Of a stretch of 64,000 bases of DNA, positions 5,357-54,956 are shown piece by piece. The first letter of the stretch is position 1. The number at the start of each line of letters is the position of its first letter. A program made the translations under genes and the position numbers. Source of the stretch: Mesostigma viride (lineage: Eukaryota; Streptophyta; Mesostigmatophyceae; Mesostigmatales; Mesostigmataceae); the NCBI GenBank assembly GCA_009746045.1, contig RPFO01000167.1, positions 498,001-562,000 of the forward strand. The letters are read 5' to 3'. The notes beneath the pieces were generated by a model. The model did no database searches. It was given only the letters and a program-made list of their open reading frames with translations, and was not told the DNA's origin.

Positions 5357-6009
5357 AGTTAGCATTTTGGGTAACCAATATGCTAAGTGGATGCAGTTTG
5401 GAAAGACCTTTCCAACGCCGTGCTGACCGCCTGAAACAGACAAGGGACAAGAAAGATATGAGGTCCCGAAGTCCTAGCCGTCCGCGATTGGCGAGGGTGC
5501 AACCTTCTGGGGTAGTGGACAGGACACGTGGCAGGCCGTGCCTGCACAGGCTTAGCCTGACTATCACGTGACTGTAGTCCACGTAGACCAGGAGGGACAG
5601 CAGCCTAGGCGACTGGTGGGGTACTGGAACTGGCACAAGGCTGCAAGGATACTAGGTCTTGCAGGCTTGTGACAGGTCCTGTACTTCCTAGGTTGCAGGT
5701 AGCTAGGTAAATCCAGTTCGTCCTGGCTCTGCAAGGATGCCAGTGGACGTTGAGGATTTGCTAGCAAGCCTGCAATATGCCTCGTCACACCGATGGGAAC
5801 GAGGAGCAACAAAGAGGCATATAGCTTGGTCATGAGGATGGCCAAGCTATCTCGGAAGCACGCGCTCTGGTTGCCCACTTGAACGTGGAAGTGACCAACA
5901 AGGTGTGGCTTGGTGTTTGGGCTAAAGGTTGCTGTCCCCAGCAATTGGCTCAAGCTTATATAGCGTGAAAGACCAAGAGCTCACACGCTCTGGGCTGGTT
6001 CGTCTAACT
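5357..6009 (+). repeat. R1 5' LTR (653 bp)
   Basis: Starts AGTTAGCATTTTGGG and ends GGTTCGTCTAACT. Both ends are fixed by the target duplication and by comparison with four other copies (11069, 24958, 40303, 43084). The first 30 bp contain an inverted repeat TTAGCAT...ATGCTAA, and the last 60 bp contain AGCGTG...CACGCT. There is no TG...CA. Differs from the 3' LTR at a few bases plus small indels. Confidence 0.9.
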
Positions 6010-6019
6010 CGTACTATTG
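6010..6019 (+). promoter_or_regulatory. R1 putative primer-binding site (non-tRNA)
   Basis: CGTACTATTG directly follows the 5' LTR. It does not start with TGG as a PBS for a tRNA 3' end would. Its exact reverse complement lies in the R1 3' region at 42761-42770. Complementarity begins at the first base after the LTR and does not extend into it. Confidence 0.7.
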
Positions 6020-11228: not shown

Positions 11229-11872
11229 ATTTAGATGAACGCGGATCAGTGAGTTTCTGGTCTTCCCAAGATGTGATGAATGGAGCCATGGTTTCAACCA
11301 GCGGCTTTTAACCTTTACCACAGTTGCCTCACTACCCTGTGGTCACTAGCCTGAGGCGGCAGTACCCACGGACGGTGTTGGGAAAAGACGCTTGGCCACT
11401 GCTGTGTCCGAGCCTTTCTAGGTCTCACCATTGCTGCCAGGCCTTGCACGCCTTGGCAGGTCCGCCACTGTCAATTTCCTTGGTTGCATCAATCCAGGAC
11501 GTCTGTCCTTCCATGAATGACAGTAACGCTCTGGATTTATCCGTCATGACAAGTACCCGTCCATCCCAGGCCTGCAGGACTGCCAGTCCTGAAGTCCTGT
11601 GACATTCTTGGTACCATCAACCAATATTGACCACAGTACCTCCTAGTGACAGTCGGTCCTGTGACACGTAACGTGTGATGGTTCACCCAACACTGCCACG
11701 TGCCCTGTCCCTCACGTGTCCTTAGTCCTGGTACTGCTGTAGCGTCCGGCGGCATTACTTCGGGACTTGATAACTCTCAAGTTCCTTGTCCAAATGAGGC
11801 GTTTAGCACGGCGTTGGAAAGGCCACTTCAAGTATGATATGCTTAGCATATTGCATCACCAATATGCTAACT
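11229..11872 (-). repeat. R4 3' LTR (644 bp)
   Basis: In element orientation it starts AGTTAGCATATTGGTG and ends CATCTAAAT. The first bases form a 10-bp inverted repeat (TTAGCATATT...AATATGCTAA). Matches 18758-19401 almost completely. Confidence 0.9.
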
Positions 11873-12835
11873 CCAACCCTTTCTTGTTTTGGAGCTGCAA
11901 GCTTCACACCATGACCAACCCATTCCTTGCTGCCTTGTGAAATGGACACCTGGTTACCCTGGACTTATAATAAGCCTCATGAGCACCCCTTTTGCCACCT
12001 TAATGGTATCCTTCTTAGGGATCTATGGTTCAACCCTGCCATCTGATCATTAACTTGACCTGCAGGTCATCCCCAACCCTTTCTTTTGCAACTGTACCTT
12101 GGCTTGGGCTTAAAGGAGGATATTGAATATTCCTTAGGCAACATATCCTGGATATCTGAATGAGAGGCCCTGACTACAGGAAACGTATTACAGTGAGTTC
12201 CTGGTCTTCCCAGTTATCACTGGCGCCCGTTTCATGGCGCCCGCCCCGAGCGTTCCAGGCATCATCCATCCAAATGTTCACCAATGGAAACCACTTCAAC
12301 ACCACTGTGCCACTGCTTGATGGGGAGCCCATGTCATCACTGGGTGTTAAAGCCCAGGAGTCATACATACCAGGCTGTGGCTCAACTAGGGAATCGAACC
12401 CTACCCCAGAACCCCAGGTTAAACTTAACCTGGTCACATGACAGACAACAAGAGAGATTGGCATACAACATGATTATGTTTTATTATAGAATATCCACCA
12501 AAACCAATGTTGAGTGTTCCCAGTGGACCAGCCTGCACCAGCAAGGCCCAACTGTCAGGTTACAACACCATAATATCCAAGGTTGTCACTTATTCACAGC
12601 TAAAGAAAACTAAACAAGAGAGATATATACAAACAACCTGGAAGAACTCTCAACATGGCCTGCCCTGTCATGGCCTAACTGCCCGAGGCCAAAGGCATCC
12701 CACTGTGCTAATCCTTTACAGGAAGAGCTTGCTCCTGTTGAGCCTTCTACCTGCTTGGTGACAGGTAGGCTACCTGTTGCCCTCCCCCCTGGGGACAACA
12801 GCACTGGTCAGCCACCAACTGGCAAAGGCTGGACT
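11873..12835 (-). other. R4 3' untranslated region with conserved motifs
   Basis: Non-coding. In element orientation it holds, in order: an AATAAA-containing stretch near 12482, a hairpin CCAGGTTAAGTTTAACCTGG (12415-12434), a tRNA T-arm-like GGGTTCGATTCCC (12389-12401), a conserved GGGCT...CCC hairpin block, two CGGGCGCC boxes (12236-12243 and 12222-12229), an AGTGA...TCACT stem, and ACTGTAATACG (12184-12194), the complement of the sequence just after the R4 5' LTR. The same order occurs in R1 and R3. Confidence 0.7.
12184..12194 (-). promoter_or_regulatory. R4 PBS complement in the 3' region
   Basis: Plus-strand CGTATTACAGT here and ACTGTAATACG at 18747-18757 form an 11-nt perfect inverted pair. 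The second lies immediately after the 5' LTR in element orientation. Pairing stops at the LTR boundary. Confidence 0.7.
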
Positions 12836-15800
12836 TCAAGTCCCACCAGAAAAGGGGTACATGAGCCCTTTGAGCACAGGGTATTGTAGCTCAGCCTTGC
12901 TCTCCAGCTTGGTGAGGGCGTCTGCTGGGTTGTCAACACCAGGCACATGTTCAAGATGAGCAAGGTAAGACATCTCCTTCAGCAACAAATAATCCAGATC
13001 CCTGCTCCTGGCGAGCTGTCTGTGCACAAACTGCACCATGCCCATGCTGTCTGTCTTGACCAGTGTGTGCAGCTGCAAGCTACAGGAAGCTACCTGACAG
13101 AGCTGGTAGAATAACTCCCTGAGGTAAAGAGCAGTGTGTAGCCCCTCACATATTGCCCTGCACTCAGCAATGTCACTGCTGGGCGTCACCCTGTTCTGTA
13201 ACCTACTGTACCAGCTGACCAGAGAAGTGTGCTCCTGTTGTAGTGTAATGAGTGCTGCTGCCCTACCCCTGACATCCGTCACCTTCCTGCTGTCCATGGA
13301 ACTGTCCACAAAAAGCACCATGTTGAGTGGTTTGTACAAGTCCACAGCTGCCAGTATGAGTGGAGGTGAGCTCCTGACAGACTCAACCACCTGCTCTGCC
13401 CCTACCTCAACCAGCTGAGCATCTGTGAGCCTACTCAGCACCAACAAATCTGGGGCACAAATGCTAGCTAGCCAAGCCAACATTCCCCTGATTGTGGCAC
13501 ACCTGGCCTGGGTAATGGGCTGCTGGAGGGCATCAATGATCTGCTGAGGATAGTTGTTGCCACCCTCCATCTTGATAAACCAAGTACCTGCCCTCTTGAT
13601 CAGCGTGGCCTGCATTCCACAAAACACCATGGGCTCATCCTGCTTCATGTGCTGGACCTTTCCTAACTCAAACCTCTTCTGGATCTTGGACAGTACTGAA
13701 TCCACCCACTCAGGAGGCCCTAAAAGGTGCAGGTCATCTCCATGCAGAGATGCAAACACAGGCAACCCTTCATGAGTACTCTGGAACAAGCAAGGATCAA
13801 CTGGAGACACAGTAAAGCCACAGTGAGTTTTCAGAAACTTTTCCAGGCTCTTTCTCCAGATGATAGGGCTGGACCTGAGACCCTCCAAACCCTTGAGTAT
13901 TCTGAGATATTTTGACTTGATCTCTGCTCTCCACACCTTGGGCACTGTTACAAAGAAGGGAGGGATATCACGCCACGTCTCCTTGGCCTGCTCCACATCA
14001 CCTTGAGAAAAGCCCTCTTGAAATCAATCAGCACAGAGCTGTACGCAATGCCCTTGACCAGGAAAGACAGATATATACACAGAACAATCCTCCAGGTATC
14101 ATGCAGCATCCCAGGCGTATACAACTCCTCATCTGTCAGCTCCCCCGTGCCATGGTACTCAGTCACAACTGGCCTCACATGTGGCACCTGCACACCGTCT
14201 ATCTCCTTCAGCTTGAGCACAAACAAGAGCCTTAGCAACTGATGCTCCCTGGGCAACTCATCCACAGGCTCAGCACAGTTAGACACTATCCAGTCATGCC
14301 CACTGGAGACAAACCCTAGAATCCATGCCTTAGCCATCTTGGGGCTTTGCATCAACTCTACCAACTGGTGCCAGGAAATAGGACTGTGACCAGCAATCTG
14401 GTACTTGTGCACCCCCAAGTCCCGTGGATCTAGGGTGGTTGGGATGATCAACAAGTCCTCAGCAATGGGCTCCTTGCCTTCAGGCCCCACACTCTGCTGC
14501 CCCTTCACAGCCTTGACTGCCACAGCTAGACCCTTGGAGTAGTGATATCTCTGGAGGGGCAAACTGCCGTGACCTTCTAGTGCAAGCTCATCTGCTGACA
14601 GAGTCACTCCTGGCATGCACAAGAAATTCTGGCCCAAAATGGCAGGCCCCTGGTACCCTTCCACCACACAGAACGCAGTGGGGACACCCAGGATAGGCAC
14701 AGTCACTTCCCCTAGGATCTTCATTGTTACAGTGCCCGTAAAGTCACTCACTGCCCTGCAGCCAGCCTTATTCACCTTCAGGCCCTGAGCATCCTCCACC
14801 CTGATGATAGACACCTCTGAGTTAGTATCCACTTCTAGGGTAGCAGCCCAGCAAGAACCCCATTCAGTCAACTTAGATACCTTGGGATCCTTGTGCTTGT
14901 TGAACATGAGCGACCGGACAATGTCTGCCATGAGTGGCCTCTTGGACCCTGGTGCAGGCCCAGCCCCCGTTGGCTCCACCACAGGTGATGCAGTTGCCTC
15001 CTGCACCTCATCATCATCAGAGGGATAGCCACCTCCCACGTCAGTGACAGGCACATCAACTACCTGGTCCTTAACCTGGCCCTCCAGCCAACACTGGGGT
15101 CCAGGCCCGTCTGCAGGCCAGATTGCATGTGGCTTGCGTTCCTTGACGTTGGCCCAGCTCAACCTGTAAACATGCCTGGGATTACTCTCCAAGGCCACAA
15201 GGCAGGAACGATTGGCATCTTCCACACAGGTCACCACCCCGTTCTGCCACTTGCCCCTCTTGCCCTGCATTGATGGCTCCTTCCACATTCTGACCTTCAG
15301 CCCCACCTGAGGCCTCAGCACATTCCAGCCCCTATCCTTGCGTCTCAACTGAGCAAACACCCTGTCTGCTTTCCTCAAGCAAGCCTGGACCACTTCCTGG
15401 GCTAGCATCCCAAACTGCAGTGCTACAGGATTGACAGCCACCCCGTCATAATAGTAGTTTATTCTGAGGTTCAACTGTTCTTCCACCTGCCTGGTCCACA
15501 CTGCCCTCTCCAAAGCAGATGCTACCAGTGGCACCTTAGGTTCTGCCAGCACTACGGTCTTGACCTCCCTGATGGATCTCTCCACAGCACCTTGCTGTCC
15601 ATGGCTCTCCCTGGGCGTGACCAGCAGCTTGCATGGCAGTTGCTCCTGCTGTGACAGTAGGCACTCAAACTGAATATCAGCCTGTACTGTCTTGTACACC
15701 CCAAAGCCTGGTAAGAGAGTCTGCAAGCCCAGCAGCAGGGTATTCCCCTTCATATCTGGCAGAATCTGGAGCAGCCTGTACCTGCTAAATCTGTCCACTG

Positions 15801-16374
15801 CCACCAAAATGTATAAGCCCCTGATATGCTGGACGTCTACCTGGATGTCCCCCTTCTCCCTGGCAGGCTCCCTAGCATGGGACCTTGGCTTCTTGGCAGC
15901 ATTCTCCTTACAAGCACATTGCTCAGCTGCAGCCCTGCATGCTTCCCTCAGTGGCTCATCTCCAATCTTCCAACCAAACATCTCAGCCATGGCTGTGTGA
16001 CCAAAGATATTGTGCAGCCTGCGTCCAGCATCCGTGTAGCTCAGTTGCCTAGCCAGATTACGCACCTGGGAAGACGCCTGGACGGGCCCTGCGTGTGAGG
16101 ACGCAACATCCACCTTCTGCATCTTGGATCCAGAGGACCCAGCAGACCCTCCCAGCAGAGCATCTAGGCTCCCAGAGCCAACCCTGTCTGGGGACCCTCC
16201 ACCTGTTGACAGTTGAGGGGATTGTTGTGCTGCAGCATGCATGCAATCTTGTGGAATGAGAACATCAGTACACCCCTGGTGCTGATCAGAGGTGGCACCC
16301 TGCCCAGATTTATTTACATGTGAAGCTGTGTCCCCACAGGGTGTCTCACTATGTACACGGGACTGCTTCACTAG
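12836..16374 (-). pseudogene. pol: R4 Pol: integrase, protease, RT, RNase H
   Basis: Continuous in frame with gag after UGA-CUA-G. Two frames: 16371-13948 (807 codons) and 13996-12836 (386 codons). The break is at FLK, where one G of an expected GGG is missing near 14006 (CTCAAGGTGAT). The first frame contains the integrase zinc site (RRLHNIFGH ... CACKENA), VQADIQF and GAVERSIREVK, then protease EVDTNSEVSII and ILGQNFL. The second frame contains RT with LEGLRSSPIIW and LHGDDLHLLG, then RNase H (VDSSMDSRKVT, SSDIAECRAI, TDSMGMVQFV, VDNPADALTK). Same integrase-protease-RT-RNase H order as R1. Confidence 0.85.
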
Positions 16375-18746: not shown

Positions 18747-18757
18747 ACTGTAATACG
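18747..18757 (-). promoter_or_regulatory. R4 putative primer-binding site
   Basis: In element orientation CGTATTACAGT, directly after the 5' LTR. Not tRNA-like. Its perfect 11-nt complement is at 12184-12194. Confidence 0.65.
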
Positions 18758-19401
18758 ATTTAGATGAACGCGGATCAGTGAGTTTCTGGTCTTCCCAAGA
18801 TGTGATGAATGGAGCCATGGTTTCAACCAGCGGCTTTTAACCTTTACCACAGTTGCCTCACTACCCTGTGGTCACTAGCCTGAGGCGGCAGTACCCACGG
18901 ACGGTGTTGGGAAAAGACGCTTGGCCACTGCTGTGTCCGAGCCTTTCTAGGTCTCACCATTGCTGCCAGGCCTTGCACGCCTTGGCAGGTCCGCCACTGT
19001 CAATTTCCTTGGTTGCATCAATCCAGGACGTCTGTCCTTCCATGAATGACAGTAACGCTCTGGATTTATCCGTCATGACAAGTACCCGTCCATCCCAGGC
19101 CTGCAGGACTGCCAGTCCTGAAGTCCTGTGACATTCTTGGTACCATCAACCAATATTGACCACAGTACCTCCTAGTGACAGTCGGTCCTGTGACACGTAA
19201 CGTGTGATGGTTCACCCAACACTGCCACGTGCCCTGTCCCTCACGTGTCCTTAGTCCTGGTACTGCTGTAGCGTCCGGCGGCATTACTTCGGGACTTGAT
19301 AACTCTCAAGTTCCTTGTCCAAATGAGGCGTTTAGCACGGCGTTGGAAAGGCCACTTCAAGTATGACATGCTTAGCATATTGCATCACCAATATGCTAAC
19401 T
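18758..19401 (-). repeat. R4 5' LTR (644 bp)
   Basis: Element-orientation start AGTTAGCATATTGG at 19401, end CTAAAT at 18758. One visible difference from the other LTR. Confidence 0.9.
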
Positions 19402-25608: not shown

Positions 25609-25618
25609 CGTACTATTG
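25609..25618 (+). promoter_or_regulatory. R3 putative primer-binding site
   Basis: CGTACTATTG directly after the LTR. Perfect 10-nt complement at 39982-39991 in the R3 3' region. Confidence 0.7.
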
Positions 25619-26283: not shown

Positions 26284-26662
26284 AGTTATGCAACACGAAG
26301 CTTGGAATGCTCGGGCACTGCCAAATGGCGAGAGTGTGCGTGAACGACGAAACACCTTGGCATTAGGATAGAATGGCACATATACTGCTGGCCAGCCGTC
26401 AACGATGGCTGGCCAGACTTTGCGTAAGTTAAACTAACTTACTGATCCTGGACGGACTAGCCTATCAGTTACAACCTGATCTAGTCAGTCCTAACATGAC
26501 AACTACAGTCCCGGTACTGAGGTACCGGCTCATCACATACTGAGTATAGCCACGTGTCCATGCCACGACTGCTCTAGTCCAGCACCGTCCCAGTACCCAA
26601 TTGGGCGCCGGCGGTGCTGGCACGTGTCCACTTAGGCTACAGGCGGGAGACTTAGACTAACT
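26284..26662 (-). repeat. R5 3' LTR (379 bp)
   Basis: Element-orientation start AGTTAGTCTAAG, end GCATAACT. Contains an internal perfect inverted repeat GTAAGTTA-AAC-TAACTTAC. The purine-rich AAAGTGGG directly precedes it in element orientation and may be the polypurine tract. Confidence 0.9.
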
Positions 26663-27046
26663 CCCACTTTAAGTTTTCTTTGGGTTTCAACAGAAACACA
26701 CATAGCCATCAAATGGACGCAGCCATTCCCAATGCCTTAAAAAAACTGTCAGATAACCTACTAGGACCCAAAGGTCACCTCACACATGTACAAGAGATGC
26801 ATTAAAAAGGCCCCATGTCTCAAGCATGGTTTCTTAACTGAGTGAGATGGGTGCTCCAGGCCCCAGCATGTCATGGTCATCCAAACAAGTGTCTCACAAA
26901 ATTTTATTCAATAAATAACACATTCATCATGTCCCAACTTTCTAGACCAGTGCTTCTCACTGTCAGAAAACTACCCAGCTGCCACTGCAGCCTTTCAGCT
27001 GCAGTATTAGGCAGGGGGTCATGGGCTAACATGTACAATGTGCCAG
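26663..27046 (-). other. R5 3' untranslated region
   Basis: Non-coding. Element orientation: AATAAA near 26912, a hairpin CCATG-CTTGAGA-CATGG (26814-26830), then TTTTTAATGCA, the complement of the sequence after the 5' LTR. No CGGGCGCC boxes or T-arm motif seen. Confidence 0.65.
26798..26808 (-). promoter_or_regulatory. R5 PBS complement in the 3' region
   Basis: Plus-strand TGCATTAAAAA here pairs with plus-strand TTTTTAATGCA at 33395-33405, immediately next to the 5' LTR. 11 nt perfect, ending at the LTR boundary. Confidence 0.7.
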
Positions 27047-33394: not shown

Positions 33395-33405
33395 TTTTTA
33401 ATGCA
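33395..33405 (-). promoter_or_regulatory. R5 putative primer-binding site
   Basis: Element-orientation TGCATTAAAAA directly after the 5' LTR. Not tRNA-like. Pairs with 26798-26808. Confidence 0.65.
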
Positions 33406-33784
33406 AGTTATGCAACACGAAGCTTGGAATGCTCGGGCACTGCCAAATGGCGAGAGTGTGCGTGAACGACGAGACACCTTGGCATTAGGATAGAATGGCA
33501 CATATACTGCTGGCCAGCCGTCAACGATGGCTGGCCAGACTTTGCGTAAGTTAAACTAACTTACTGATCCTGGACGGACTAGCCTATCAGTTACAACCTG
33601 ATCTAGTCAGTCCTAACATGACAACTACAGTCCCGGTACTGAGGTACCGGCTCATCACATACTGAGTATAGCCACGTGTCCATGCCACGACTGCTCTAGT
33701 CCAGCACCGTCCCAGTACCCAATTGGGCGCCGGCGGTGCTGGCACGTGTCCACTTAGGCTACAGGCGGGAGACTTAGACTAACT
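33406..33784 (-). repeat. R5 5' LTR (379 bp)
   Basis: Same as 26284-26662 except one A/G difference (GACGAGACACC here versus GACGAAACACC). Ends defined by CTCGT duplications. Confidence 0.9.
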
Positions 33785-35733: not shown

Positions 35734-38700
35734 CTAGCTACATCATCCCCTGTAAATAGTCAATCACCCCTTGGGGAAGGTGTGCTGGATGTACATAAGG
35801 ACGGGGGTGTGCCCCTTGTGCAGCACCAAGGGTGTAAAGATGTTGTTCTTCCACTGGATTGCAATAACAATGCTGCAGCTGAATTCCCTATGCCTCATGC
35901 AGGTGGTGGGTCTCCAGCAGGTGCTGGCCTGGAGGGCCAAAGGACCTTGCTGGAAGGGCCTGGAGCGGTCCAGGGTGCAGGGCCTGGCTTGGGGCGTCAG
36001 GATGGCCTGCAGGGAAGCCCTGGAACCTCAGGAGTGGATCATGTGTCCCCACACACGGTTCAGACGTCTCGCCAGGTCAGTACTGAGAGAGTGCTGAGCT
36101 ATGCTGAGGCTGGCCATAGGTTGCATCACATGTTTGGACATTCTGGGCAGGCAGCAATGTTTGCTTGGAAGTTAGGTAGGAAGCCTTTGTGGGAGGCATG
36201 CCAGGCTGCTGCTGAGAACTGTGGTTGCCAGGAGAATGCTGTTCACCCACCCCAGTCCCATGCTAGGGAGCCTGCTAGAGAGCGTGGCGACATCCAGATG
36301 GATATCCAGCATATCAGGGGCTTGTATATATTAGTGGGGGTGGACAGGTTCAGTAGATATAGACTGATAGCGTTCTACCTGGTATGCAGGAGCATCACTT
36401 GTTGTTGGGTATGAAGGCCCTGATCCCAGGCTTTGGGGTATGCAAGAGTGTGCAGGCAGACTTGCAGTTTGACTGTTTGCTCAAGCATCAGGACCAGCTG
36501 CCTTGTAAGCTGGTAGTAGTCCCCAGGGAGAGTCATGGGCAGCAAGGGGCTGTAGAGAGATCCATACGTGAAGTGAAGACAGTGGTGCTAGCAGCAGAGT
36601 CAGTGCCACTTGTGGCATCTGCCTTAGAGAGGGCAGCCTGGTGTAAGGGGATAGAAGAGCAGCTGAACCACAGGGTTAATTATTACTTTGATGGTGTGGC
36701 TGTCTCTCCCCTGGCCCTGCAGTATAGCTTACTACCTGAGAATGTGGTGCAGGCCAGTCTTAGAAAGGCAGACAGGCTGTTTGCCCAGCTGAGACGTAAG
36801 GACAAGAACTGGAATGTGCTGAGGCCTCAGGTGGGGCTGAAGGTCAGGATGTGGAAGGAACCATCTATTCCAGGCAAGCGGGGGAAGTGGCAGGATGGGG
36901 TTGTCACTCGTGTGGAAGAAGCTAACAGATCTTGCCTGGTGGCTTTGGAAAAGGATCCAAGGCACGTGTACAGGTTGTCCTGGGCTCATGTCAAGGAGAG
37001 AAGGCCACATGCAATCTGGCCTGCAGACGGGCCAGGCCCTCCCAGCTGGGTTGAGGAGCCAGGCCAGAGCCAGGCAGCAGCAGCTAACAATCCTCTGGTG
37101 GTGGATGATGGTCTGTCCCTACTGGAAGATGACGAGCAGGAGGCTGCTGAAGCAACTGTCACAAGGCCAGAGGGGACGGGGCAGCCACCTAAGGCCCGGG
37201 GGCCTCTCATGGCGGACGTCATCCGAGCACTCATGCGCAGCAAACATGATCCCAAGGTATCCAAGCTCACGGGGTGGGGGTCGTGCTGGGCAGCTACAAT
37301 GGAGGTAGATACCAACTCACAGGTGTCTGTCATCAGGGAAGAGGATGCTGTAGGCTTACAGATGTCCCATCCCAGTTGCCTTGCTGTGTCTGATTTCTCA
37401 GGAAAGGTGTCCATGAAGATCCTTGGGGAAGTGAGTGTGCCTATCTTAGGGGTGCCCACCACGTTCTGTGTGGTAGAGGGCTATCAGGGGCCTGCCATTC
37501 TGGGTCAGAACTTCTTGTGCATGCCAGGGGTTACTTTGACCTCTGATGAGTTGGCACTAGAAGGCAGGGGCAGCCTCCCCCTTGAAAGATATCACTATTC
37601 CCAGGGTCTTGCAGTGGCGGTGAAGGCTGTTAAGAGTCAGCCAGCTGAGGGTCCTCAAGGTCAGGAGCCCATAGCTGAGGACCTGTTGATAATCCCAACC
37701 ACCTTTGATCCACGGCAGTTAGGGGTAAACAGGTACCAGATAGCTGCTCACAGTCCTATTCCCTGGCGCCAGCTAGTCGAGATGATGCAGAGCCCCAAGA
37801 TGGCTAAGGCATGGACTCTTGGCTTTGTTGCTTCTGGGCATGAGTGGATAGTTTCCAACTGTGCAGAACCTGTGGATGAGCTGCCAGAAGTTCACCAGCT
37901 GCTCAGATTGATGTTTGTCCTCAAGCTCAAGGAGGTAGATGGTGTCCAGGTGCCACATGTCAGACCAGTTGTAACCGAGTATCATGGCACTGGCCAGTTG
38001 TTAGATGAGGAGCTCTATACTCCAGGGATGCTGCATGACACGTGGAGGATTCTGCTGTGTATATTTCTGTCTTTTCTGGTCAAGGGTGTGCCCTATAGCT
38101 CTGTGCTGATTGATTTCAAGAGGGCTTTTCTCAAGGGTGACCAAGATCAGGCTAGGCAGACTTGGAGAGATATCCCTCCTTTCTTTGTGACTGTACCTGC
38201 TGTATGGAGAGCAGAGATAAAGGCCAGGTACCTGAGAATTCTGAAAGGGTTGGAAGGTCTCAGGTCCAGTCCCATTATCTGGAGAAAGAGCCTAGAGAAA
38301 TTCTTGAAGAATACTTGTGGGTTTTCTGTGTCTCCAGTGGATCCCTGTTTGTTCCAAGGGTCCCACAATGGCCTTCCTGTCTTTGCCTCACTGCATGGTG
38401 ATGACCTGCATCTCATAGGTCCACCAGACTGGGTTGAGGCTGTTTTGGCCAAGATCCAGAAGCGGTTTGAGCTGGGTAAGATACAGCACATGGTGGAGAA
38501 TGAGCCTATGGTCTTCTGTGGCATGCAGGCTACGTTGTTCCAAGCCAAGGGCTCGTGGTTCATCAGGATGGAGGGTGGTAAGGACTACCCACAGCAGATT
38601 GTAGATGCATTGCAGGAGCCCATCACGCAGGCTAGGTGTGCTACCATCAGGGGCATGCTGGCATGGCTTGCAAGTATATGTGCCCCTGACCTGCTGGTTT

Positions 38701-39301
38701 TGAGTCGACTCACTGATTCCCAGCTGGTTGAGGTGGGTGCTGAGAGTGTGGTGCAGGCTGTCATGATGTCTCCCCCTCTTATACTGGGTCCTGTGGATTT
38801 GTACAAGCCCCTTGACATGATCCTTTATGTTGACAGTTCTATGGACAATAGGAAGGTCACAGAAGTCAGGGGCAGGGCAGCAGCATAGTCACCCTGGAGC
38901 AAGATCACACCTCACTTGTTACCTGGTACAGTCGGTTGCAAAACAGGGTTACACCCAGCAGTGATATTGCTGAGTGCAGGGCAATCTGTGAAGGGCTGCA
39001 TACTGCTCTTTACTTAAGGGAGCTATTCTACCAGCTATGTCAAGTGGCTTCCTGTAGGTTGCAGCTGCACACACTGGTGAGGACTGATAGCATGGGCATG
39101 GTGCAGTTTGTGCACAGGCAGCTAGCCAGGAGCAGGGACCTTGACTACTTGTTGCTCAAGGAGATGTCCTACCTAGCTCACATTGAACATGTGCCTGGTG
39201 TGGATAACCCTGCAGATGCCCTCACCAAGCTGGAGGAGAAGGCGGAGCGGCAGTACCCCCTGCTCCGTGGGCTCATGGACCCCTTGCACGGGCGGCCATA
39301 G
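35734..39301 (+). pseudogene. pol: R3 Pol, full length with two 1-nt deletions
   Basis: The only copy of this family in one piece from integrase to RNase H. Integrase and protease as in R1. RT: DFKRAFLKGD, then TWRDIPPFF, LEGLRSSPIIW, DPCLF and LHGDDLHLIG. RNase H: VDSSMDNRKVT, WYSRLQNRVT, SSDIAECRAI, TDSMGMVQFV, HVPGVDNPADALTK. Frame broken by loss of one G near 36371 (GATAGCG for GATAGGCG) and one A near 38885 (GCATAG for GCAATAG, intact in the R1 copy at 41655). Expected product of UGA readthrough from gag. Confidence 0.88.
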
Positions 39302-40302
39302 AGACCAGGCCTTGCTTCAGCTTGGGTGTCCCCGGTGGGTTGTTTGACCAAAGTGCCAAGTGGTGACTGGTGCTTGCTGGTTGACAACTGGTCCTTCAGG
39401 GTTAGGTACACCCTCCTGGACAGGAGTTGGTGTGGAATGTCACTCCTACCAGCTGAGAATCATGCCTGGCCCTCCCCATGGGGTTCAGAAGAGTCGCCAG
39501 GACTTAAGTCGACGCCTTTGGCCTCAAACAGTTAGGCCATGCAAGGGCAACCCGAATGCTGGTTCTTACAGGTTGCTGTACATATGTTTTCTAGTGCTTG
39601 TTTCCAACCTGTTGCTAATAAAGAACCTGGTTGTGTGACCATGTGGACATGGTTGCCAGGGAGCCACATTCTGGGTTATATAATGCTTGAATAAAACATA
39701 ATCATGTCATTCTCATGTTGTTCACATGGTTGTCATGTTTGTCTTGTGAAAGTTCCAGGTCACCTATAAACCTGGAGGTTGGGGTGGGGTTCAATTCCCC
39801 AGCAGAGCCACAGCCTGGCATGAATGACTCCTGGGCTTAACACCCAGTGAAGACATGGGCTCCCCAAGGAGACAGCATTAATCTAGGTGCTACCTGGTTC
39901 TTTGAGCAGAAGGGAAAGGTTGGCCAAGGCGGGCGCCATAAGAACGGGCGCCTGTGATAACTGTGAAAGACCAGGAACTCACAATAGTACGTTCTTGGCA
40001 TCCTGTAATCCCAGCCATTGAGCTAGGTAATGTACCTTGACCTTAATCCACACCAAGTTCCCAAGGAAAGGTTGGGAGCTGACCAAGGGGTCAGGGGATA
40101 ACCTGGGGTGACCTCTGATTCACTGGCCAGCATACCTAAGCTGTTCCAAGGGCACATATGTTGTGTTCCCAAAAGGAAGGCAGGAACCTGGGCCCTGACA
40201 GGTCTGATCAACCTCAAGGGACCAAGCGATCTGTGGCTGAGTGGGCACAAGCTAGGCTAGGTTGTTTCAAGCTGGTCCAGCTCCAAAAGAAGAAAGGGTT
40301 GG
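39302..40302 (+). other. R3 3' untranslated region with conserved motifs
   Basis: Non-coding. Two AATAAA sites (39617 and about 39691), hairpin CCAGGT...ACCTGG, T-arm-like GGGGTTCAATTCCCC (39786-39800), CTGGG...CCCAG hairpin, CGGGCGCC boxes (39930-39937 and 39945-39952), TGTGA...TCACA stem, and CAATAGTACG (39982-39991), the complement of 25609-25618. The poly(A)-like signals lie upstream of these motifs, so which RNA includes them is open. Confidence 0.7.
39982..39991 (+). promoter_or_regulatory. R3 PBS complement
   Basis: CAATAGTACG, exact reverse complement of the 10 nt after the R3 5' LTR. Confidence 0.7.
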
Positions 40303-42563: not shown

Positions 42564-42578
42564 GGGGTTCAATTCCCC
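42564..42578 (+). other. tRNA T-arm / B-box-like hairpin
   Basis: GGGGTTCAATTCCCC: 4-bp stem with the seven-base loop TTCAATT and the Pol III B-box consensus GGTTCRANNCC. Equivalent motifs sit at 39786 (R3), 12389-12401 (R4, minus) and 54292-54304 (R6). No complete cloverleaf was found. Confidence 0.55.
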
Positions 42579-42760
42579 AGCAGAGCCACAGCCTGGCATG
42601 AATGACTCCTGGGCTTAACACCCAGTGAAGACATGGGCTCCCCAAGGAGACAGCATTAATCTAGGTGCTACCTGGGTTCTTTGAGCAGAAGGGAAAGGTT
42701 GGCCAAGGCGGGCGCCATAAGAACGGGCGCCTGTGATAACTGTGAAAGACCAGGAACTCA

Positions 42761-42770
42761 CAATAGTACG
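42761..42770 (+). promoter_or_regulatory. R1 PBS complement
   Basis: CAATAGTACG, exact reverse complement of 6010-6019. Directly follows the TGTGA...TCACA stem, with which its first bases overlap. Confidence 0.7.
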
Positions 42771-43083: not shown

Positions 43084-43730
43084 AGTTAGCATTTTGGGTA
43101 ACCAATATGCTAAGTGGATGCAGTTTGGAAAGACCTTTCCAACGCCGTGCTGACCGCCTGAAACAGACAAGGGACAAGAAAGATATGAGGTCCCGAAGTC
43201 CTAGCCGTCCGCGATTGGCGAGGGTGCAACCTTCTGGGGTAGTGGACAGGACACGTGGCAGGCCGTGCCTGCACAGGCTTAACCTGACTATCACGTGACT
43301 GTAGTCCACGTAGACCAGGAGGGACAGCAGCCTGCGACTGGTGGGGTACTGGAACTGGCACAAGGCTGCAAGGATACTAGGTCTTGCAGGCTTGTGACAG
43401 GTCCTGTACTTCCTAGGTTGCAGGTAGCTAGGTAAATCCAGTTCGTCCTGGCTCTGCAAGGATGCCAGTGGACGTTGAGGATTTGCTAGCAAGCCTGCAA
43501 TATGCCTCGTCACACCGATGGGAACGAGGAGCAACAAAGAGGCATATAGCTTGGTCATGAGGATGGCCAAGCTATCTCGGAAGCACGCGCTCTGGTTGCC
43601 CACTTGAACGTGGAAGTGACCAACAAGGTGTGGCTTGGTGTTTGGGCTAAAGGTTGCTGTCCCCAGCAATTGGCTCAAGCTTTGCGTGAAAGACCAAGAG
43701 CTCACACGCTCTGGGCTGGTTCGTCTAACT
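43084..43730 (+). repeat. R1 3' LTR (647 bp)
   Basis: AGTTAGC to CTAACT, followed by the GTTGT target duplication. Few differences from 5357-6009 (CTTAACCTG, CAGCCTGCGAC, CTTTGCG near the end). Confidence 0.9.
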
Positions 43731-47713: not shown

Positions 47714-48329
47714 AGTTAACGTAAAGGATTTACGTTAGATGGATAGAGATTGTTACGCTCTTTCCAACGGCACCTTGAACGCCTCATTTGGTTAAGGAAC
47801 GTAAAAGTTATGACGTTTCCTAGGCTGTGCCGACAGTACCCGGCGCGCCACGTTGTGGGCGCGTACGGACACAGGATGTACAAGTGTCACTTTGATAGTC
47901 CGCAGGACGTTGACAGGACTTGTACAGGACTTGATGGTCAATTGATAGGTAGGCGCGCTGTAGCGCGCCAGGACCTATGAGACAATTGATGCTGAGCAGT
48001 GTACGGATAGGTCCACAGGACTAGCCGTATGGACAATTGATAGATCTGCGCGCCAAAGGCGTGCCAGAGTCTGTGTAATCAATTGATTGATAGTTCAGCT
48101 GTGACAGTGCAGCTGAGTACTTGGACGCGTCCCTAGCAACCTATATGTGTGACTTGGTAGCACCGGGACGCTAGTTCTTGCGTGCACGTTCTCTTGGCAC
48201 TGCGACCCTGTCGTCTGTGCTGCGTGCAGTCTTGGAAGTGACGTGACTTACGTCTGTGTTCCTTATTCTTAATAAAGGCAACATTCCTGCAAGAACCATG
48301 GCGGAATTCAGGGCAACTCTCTCACAACT
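47714..48329 (+). repeat. R6 5' LTR (616 bp)
   Basis: Starts AGTTAACGTAAAGGATTTAC, with a 9-bp inverted repeat TAACGTAAA-GGA-TTTACGTTA, and ends CTCACAACT. An AATAAA at about 48271 lies near its end. Confidence 0.9.
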
Positions 48330-48337
48330 CGTATTAC
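48330..48337 (+). promoter_or_regulatory. R6 putative primer-binding site
   Basis: CGTATTAC directly after the LTR. Reverse complement GTAATACG at 54507-54514. Shortest of the four families (8 nt). Confidence 0.55.
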
Positions 48338-54007: not shown

Positions 54008-54956
54008 GCTGGTGCCTGGTTATAGGGCATTGGAGAGCAGATTGTGTGGTAGTGTCAGCATTGTGACTGGCATAATACCTGTATTTTAGTCTGTACTAAG
54101 GCTCATGGACCATGGTACACTCACTCTGATTTTAATCAGGATACAGCCAGGTTTTGGCTGGGGTTCATGCTGTTGACTACACAAGGTTGACAGGTCCATT
54201 ACAGACCATGTATTCTATTTTAAAAGAAATGTATATTTGTACATACTTCTCACAATGGTCTGGGAACCTTTATTCTGGGGTTTATAGGGCGGGGTTCGAT
54301 TCCCTGGTATTATGTTTCTACAAGCTGGCCTGTTCAGGTGTTTGCCTGTTCAGACTTCCCTAGTTCCCCAGGGCAGGATTTAATTGTTGCCTATGTGTTT
54401 CATTTTGTCATTTGTTTGCTGTGGCAGTTTACCATCTGGCAAGTAGACGGGCGCCGTAAGACGGGCGCCAATAGACCCCTGTTGAGAGAATGACAGGCAA
54501 ACTATTGTAATACGCCTTACTTTGTCAAGTGGTATTTTAATTGTCATGGATTTATTGTACTTATATTGAATATGTACTGGGTTTTATGGGATTAGTATCT
54601 GGGATTAATGTAACTCACCGCCAGAAGGTCATTGTACTGGAGGCTCTACCGAGGTGATGGGATTAATTCCTGGAGAAGACCTCATAGAATTAACCTGTAT
54701 GTATTTAATTTTGTGTGTTCTAATATCTGGTGGTACTCTGTAATGCCACTTCCATAGGTTTTTATCCATTTCTCATGGAATGGTTTTCCCTGTGGCAGAT
54801 CTGTTTCTTTTCCAGTTCCTTAAAAGAAAAGGCTGGGGGAATGGCAATGGCCATTAAAGACATCTGTTCAAGCTTCAAGCTGGAGTGAAGGACATTTCAA
54901 GCTACTTCAAGGGTCCCTGGCAGGGGATGTGATCCCTAAAGAAAAGAAGGGATTGG
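54008..54956 (+). other. R6 3' untranslated region with conserved motifs
   Basis: Non-coding. T-arm-like GGGTTCGATTCCC (54292-54304), CGGGCGCC boxes (54448-54455 and 54462-54469), CCTGT...ACAGG stem (54477-54497), PBS complement GTAATACG (54507-54514). Ends AAGAAGGGATTGG before the LTR, a possible polypurine tract. Confidence 0.65.
54507..54514 (+). promoter_or_regulatory. R6 PBS complement
   Basis: GTAATACG, exact complement of 48330-48337, 10 nt after the CCTGT...ACAGG stem. Confidence 0.55.

Follow-up and report, generated by a model that had tools for sequence, protein, structure and literature searches.

Covarying complementarity between the primer-binding position and the 3' noncoding region of copia-like LTR elements in Mesostigma viride: a candidate 3'UTR-borne self-primer

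In LTR elements of four families, the bases that immediately follow the 5' LTR are matched by an exact reverse complement within the same element's 3' noncoding region, and the two segments change together from family to family. We consider a self-primer carried in the 3'UTR to be the best explanation for these Ty1/copia-like elements, and a probable one; the complementarity is observed, and from it we infer priming.

Paired segments in the window elements

The window, the whole 64,000-nucleotide stretch of DNA analyzed, lies in an assembly of 440 Mb (2243 contigs) and contains nested LTR elements. These comprise family A (R1, R2, and R3), family B (R4), family C (R6), and family D (R5). The A copies are approximately 98–99.6% identical in their shared parts, and identity to A is approximately 75% for B and 65% for C. 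Perfect 5-bp target duplications surround each element (GTTGT, TCCCT, ACTAC, CTATC, ACGAG). The LTRs start with AGTTA and end with AACT (A, C, D, and family I, described below) or AAAT (B, and families G and T, also below). Matches to the Pfam RVT_2 model had E-values of 9e-7 for D and 1e-4 to 4e-3 for A, B, and C; all are below the Pfam curated cut-off and thus weak, and they tentatively place A–D as Ty1/copia-like, with an RVT_2-type reverse transcriptase (RT). A very weak protease match in family A (E 0.29, residues 312–385) lies ahead of the RT (506–707), and family B has an rve match (E 0.019) at 175–210. These weak matches (window 36363–38888, plus strand, and 13951–16374, minus strand) suggest that the order in the lineage may be integrase-protease-RT instead of protease-integrase-RT. 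Comparison of the A/B polyprotein with solved structures gave a single match (E 0.69), which was left unused. Between 5357 and 43730, within the outer target duplication GTTGT, the A copies follow the pattern X a X a X a b X b X, in which X is an LTR and a and b denote internal parts; unequal exchange inside a nested insertion could give such an arrangement. A further retroelement with Retrotrans_gag, aspartic protease, and RVT_1 matches is present on the minus strand at 10–2361.

The features of the four families are located in the window as follows.

5357..6009, plus strand: 5' LTR of family A (R1, outer copy), AGTTAG...CTAACT, target duplication GTTGT on both sides
6010..6019, plus strand: primer-binding position of family A, CGTACTATTG, flush with the LTR
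42565..42577, plus strand: T-arm/B-box-like motif of family A, GGGTTCAATTCCC, in the 3' noncoding region (by motif count)
42709..42731, plus strand: tandem of the family A 3' domain, CGGGCGCC...ACGGGCGCC
42761..42770, plus strand: complement of the family A primer-binding position, CAATAGTACG, exact reverse complement
43084..43730, plus strand: outer 3' LTR of family A
25609..25618, plus strand: primer-binding position of R3 (family A), exact pair
39930..39952, plus strand: GGCGCC tandem of the R3 domain
39982..39991, plus strand: complement in R3, exact pair
18747..18757, minus strand: primer-binding position of family B (R4), CGTATTACAGT; 5' LTR at 18758–19401
12389..12401, minus strand: T-arm-like motif of family B, GGGTTCGATTCCC
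12222..12243, minus strand: GGCGCC tandem of the family B domain
12184..12194, minus strand: complement in family B, ACTGTAATACG; 3' LTR at 11229–11872
48330..48337, plus strand: primer-binding position of family C (R6), CGTATTAC; 5' LTR at 47714–48329
54292..54304, plus strand: T-arm-like motif of family C, GGGTTCGATTCCC
54448..54469, plus strand: GGCGCC tandem of the family C domain
54507..54514, plus strand: complement in family C, GTAATACG; 3' LTR from 54957
33395..33405, minus strand: primer-binding position of family D (R5), TGCATTAAAAA; 5' LTR at 33406–33784
26798..26808, minus strand: complement in family D, TTTTTAATGCA; 3' LTR at 26284–26662

The initial annotation had described an exact reverse complement of the post-LTR bases in each element's own 3' noncoding region, and all five of its coordinate pairs proved exact. 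The 5' segment is flush with the LTR as claimed, the LTR ends being fixed by the perfect target duplications. Because R1 and R3 are near-identical and form one family, the five pairs collapse to the four families reported (A, B, C, and D). The paired segments are 8–11 bases long, and the complement sits 135 to approximately 440 nt upstream of the 3' LTR. When the 60 nt on each side of the LTR end were compared with the 3' noncoding region, the flush k-mer was the longest Watson-Crick match in A, B, and D. In family C, where pairing in the window copy spans only 8 bases, the flush 8-mer tied with three further 8-mers, so that C is weak on its own. Admitting G-U pairs produced longer matches elsewhere in A, B, and C and none in D, and the count was therefore restricted to Watson-Crick matches. 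For a random k-mer of like composition, the chance of a complement in the 3' noncoding region is 9e-4 for A, 2e-4 for B, 1.6e-2 for C, and 2e-4 for D, the result for D coming from one copy. Across the whole elements of A–D, site prefixes of at least 7 bases have a single complement per element, located in the 3' noncoding region. Duplex folds contained extra pairing past the first block (GTTCC in A, CTGGTC in B), which was not clear in all families and was left unused.

Junctions and covariation in further copies

We also examined copies elsewhere in the assembly; the 3' domain was read first, then the expected 5' region. In the first round, nine copies were taken from the first 100 places listed for the tandem of the 3' domain, and five of them yielded a junction (T1, G1, G2, C2, B2). 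In the second, eight junctions came from 19 more copies, with another stretch also read for H1. The third round yielded 12 junctions from 20 copies (C 7/9, B 2/4, I 2/5, G 1/2). One more C copy and five C copies with extended LTRs brought the total to 31 junctions from 54 copies. The initial annotation had proposed covariation and flushness across copies as its check, and a matching partner was present in every one of the 31 copies whose junction could be read. Complementarity to the copy's own tail covered the first 9 bases in C, the first 10 in A, G, and T, and the first 11 in B and I. Family T has the tail CAATAATACG and the junction CGTATTATTG; family G has the tail CAATAGTACG and the junction CGTACTATTG; and family I has the junction CGTATTACAAT, 11 bases complementary to its tail ATTGTAATACG. 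For T and I, the 3' domain had been read ahead of the junctions, which then proved to carry the partner. Variation within family A followed the same rule, with no exceptions: the tail AATAATACG pairs with the junction CGTATTATTG in three of eight copies tried (the other five lacked a junction), and the tail AATAGTACG pairs with CGTACTATTG in four of eight (four lacked a junction).

Most of positions 1–4, 6, and 7 were fixed by the patterns used to search for junctions, which leaves positions 5, 8, and 9–11 for an independent test. Six of the C copies add little to the 31, having been selected by means of a pattern or site that already contained CGTATTAC. The 23 copies without a junction (24 stretches) showed no similarity to any of the nine family junctions, indicating that these junctions were lost or displaced and are not counter-examples. 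In family H the domain was present and the junction absent from the two stretches examined.

Covariation was scored over eight distinct rows (A, A-a/T, A-b/G, B, C main, C window, I, and D). Here 7 of 11 pairs were altered on both sides, which bears out the claim that the segments change together. Positions 1–8 were paired in all rows, and pairing was found in 92% of all cells, compared to 20–52% with slid partners. Cells with changes on both sides numbered 14 versus 4.8 in shuffles, a value reached in none of 500 shuffles, although kinship among the rows inflates such counts. Positions 8 and 9 had both-side changes in at least three of the eight rows, and T and A-a carry an identical change in different surroundings. 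By one covariation measure, further pair types, shuffles were not exceeded (425 of 500).

The conserved 3' domain

The 3' regions of A, B, and C align, with CGGGCGCC, 5–6 bases, ACGGGCGCC, a hairpin, and a tail ending in TAATACG or TAGTACG. The complement of the primer position is the tail of this conserved RNA domain, predicted to be folded, in A–C and their relatives; by the 3' domain, A, B, C, G, H, I, and T are related. The GGCGCC tandem has four occurrences in the window, where 0 are expected, and 1482 across the 440-Mb genome, compared to 1 for a control pattern, and it is also found in at least 120 stretches of viral contigs. Predicted folds of the domain beat shuffles with z-scores of −2.1 to −2.6 for A, B, and C and −2.8 to −3.3 for G, T, H, and I. 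The central bases of the tail are mostly unpaired in the predicted folds of A, B, and C. A helix is predicted between the strand before the second GGCGCC and the bases starting at the last two of the tail; it has 6–8 bp in six of seven families, where it is kept despite differing sequence, and 2 bp in C. Own partners gave a mean of 6.3 bp for this helix versus 3.8 for swapped ones. The first GGCGCC unit can form a predicted alternative outer helix, and the domain might therefore act as a switch or form a pseudoknot.

A T-arm-like motif, GGGTTCRATTCCC, begins 143–158 nt upstream of the tandem in A, B, and C, and is found four times in the window (0 expected). The family A stretch around this motif folded no better than shuffles (z −0.9), and ARAGORN detected no tRNAs in the window. 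Rfam gave four matches in the window at E-values up to 1, all of them short of the threshold of their family, and identity of the domain with a known RNA family was accordingly rejected. Family D lacks a domain of the A–C type, and its 3' fold was no better than shuffles (z −1.0). By eye, the U5 ends of A and B (window 5960–6009 and 18758–18830) contain an imperfect copy of one portion of the domain hairpin (GTGAAAGACCAAGAGCTCAC and GGGAAGACCAGAAACTCACTG, respectively), and these copies differ between A and B as their domains do.

Proposed initiation at the junction and its possible primers

Some C junctions carry additional sequence at the primer site. In the junctions read, the C-type LTRs are lengthened by a 12-base unit, CGTATTACAACT, which is present once or twice ahead of CGTATTACACGC, directly behind the old LTR end, and in one case together with CGTATT; ACAACTCGTATTACAACT had 69 genome matches versus 0 for the control. 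The three C elements with both LTR ends read have the same number of units at both. In two C copies (C1:184839 and C14:336248) the 5' LTR is normal and CGTATTACAACT stands between the 3' LTR and the target duplication (AATAG and GGAGG); the unit is present in both at the 3' LTR only and inside the duplication. Of 20 C 3' ends fetched, 18 show the LTR end, and one of these carries the unit (four of 18 by eye); it was found in none of 19 3' ends of other families. The unit matches the complement of the C domain over 10 of 12 bases and the primer site over 9, its last two bases being CT. Except in their last two bases, these additions fit initiation at the junction, as primer-templated plus-strand ends could leave them. 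It is our conjecture that the primer copy may have joined the LTR end through the ACA that it shares with the LTR end ACAACT. A pattern search for a domain with AGTTGTAATACG, the full unit sequence, gave no matches, so that if the unit copied the primer letter for letter, the primer was not the C tail.

In LTR elements the 3' end of the primer pairs next to U5 and sets the U5 border, with which the segment described here is flush. The genomic RNA of A–D would hold, in its 3' noncoding region, an 8–11-base segment complementary to the bases directly after the 5' LTR. The tail could pair in cis with the primer position of its own RNA, which would join the two ends, or with that of another RNA in the same particle. 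A cut directly behind the tail (...UACG or ...UGCA) would follow; the element's own RNase H may make it, as has been reported for Tf1, and the resulting 3'-OH would prime minus-strand DNA into U5. Complementarity, flush position, covariation, and domain conservation come from the DNA; pairing of the RNA, its cutting, priming, and action in cis or trans are deduced from these. The element's own 3' tail is the only partner found for the primer place and both change together, making self-priming the simplest account. We further think it likely, if a little less firmly, that this copia lineage swapped the host tRNA for an encoded 3' primer module, a folded RNA whose cleavable tail covaries with the primer site.

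Set beside known systems, the best explanation would be a further form of self-priming, the known kind being derived from the 5' LTR. A passage of PMC6317226 gives three kinds of primer for plant LTR elements (tRNA, half tRNA, and a self primer from the 5' LTR), and PMC8515867, in the part concerned, treats the family as tRNA-primed. In Tf1/sushi-type elements, which also include Tcn1 and plant TAR, the primer site is likewise paired with RNA of the element itself, over approximately 11 bases adjoining the LTR, and the Tf1 primer arises when RNase H cleaves the paired RNA (passages of PMC7175516 and PMC6317226). The Tf1-type site is complementary to the 5' end of the RNA in the LTR, whereas the partner here is in the 3' noncoding region; neither LTR of A–D contains a complement to at least 7 bases of the site, which rules out an LTR self-primer of the Tf1 type. 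In Ty1 (CYC5:CYC3) and Ty3 (bipartite site), 5' and 3' RNA regions likewise interact, with importance for initiation (PMC4974528, in part); those elements use initiator tRNA-Met, whereas the complementarity described here falls on the primer position itself. Half-tRNA primed copia elements (Osser, Bryco, Bianca, and others) also lack a TGG start, but the site here varies by family together with the element's own 3' segment. The fungal copia element GalEa similarly lacks a tRNA-type site after the LTR, according to part of PMC5445492. Its Conserved Hairpin Site is a local hairpin, in which a palindromic 9-mer follows the LTR and recurs in inverse form 12–41 bp downstream, and its LTR borders are TGT and CA; the elements described here have a distant partner and AGTTA...AACT/AAAT LTRs. 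No description of a 3'UTR primer was found in the titles and abstract openings searched, most subscription journals being outside that search. If true, a 3'UTR module would be a primer source additional to tRNA, half tRNA, and 5' LTR RNA; it would free the families from tRNA dependence, might let them keep family-private primers, and would leave a natural covariation record of primer choice. It would also be relevant to elements described as having no primer site, among them GalEa (PMC5445492, in part).

The same complementarity has other potential sources. Chance, or shared ancestry without function, gains from the relatedness of A, B, C, G, H, I, and T in the 3' domain, related rows inflating covariation counts. 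Seven pairs changed on both sides, with positions 8 and 9 changed in at least three of eight rows, slid partners fail, and D, outside the alignment of the others, still has 11 bases; we therefore regard this source as highly improbable. The initial annotation had proposed that a segment of the element's own RNA primes minus-strand synthesis or that the ends pair to circularize the RNA. Covariation and flushness in 31 of 31 copies uphold the pairing common to both and support the proposal in part. Pairing might only join the two RNA ends, like CYC5:CYC3, with synthesis started by a different primer at this position or close to it: efficient initiation in Ty1 depends on 5'-3' pairing (a passage of PMC4974528), and covariation argues for pairing, not for priming. 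This is nevertheless unlikely in our view, as the segment takes up the bases that a primer requires, flush with the LTR in all 31 copies, while CYC5 of Ty1 lies downstream of the primer site (PMC4974528, same passage). The Ty1-type layout, with complementarity beside a separate tRNA site, was not found in A–D. The initial annotation stated that none of the window sites starts with TGG; no TGG start was found at the junctions read, in window elements or further copies, which also argues against end-joining alone.

Priming by a host RNA, either a half tRNA or a small RNA, would make the 3' segment a mimic, decoy, or relic of that RNA. The T-arm-like motif and compact domain in the A–C 3' region are consistent with such a source, as are the half-tRNA primers known in copia (PMC6317226, in part) and the last two bases of the 12-base units, which match no domain found. 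We consider it quite unlikely, since the primer positions vary by family and subfamily and track each element's own tail, as one host RNA would not. Control copia families of the same genome have tRNA-type TGG sites (TGGTATCGGAG in E1 and E2, TGGCATCGGAG in E9), and at most 5 complementary bases of the site are present in their own 3' stretch. Six copia families were tried as controls; an LTR pair was found in three, and E3, E8, and E10, without an LTR pair, were dropped. Twenty tRNA stretches matched the sites of our elements over at most 5 bases; the tRNA-type control sites also matched this incomplete nuclear set over only 5 or 6, indicating that the right tRNAs are missing from the 20. Among 63 listed tRNA matches, eight, with eight different scores, were on contig G000:C2011 (1.49 Mb), which is perhaps bacterial.
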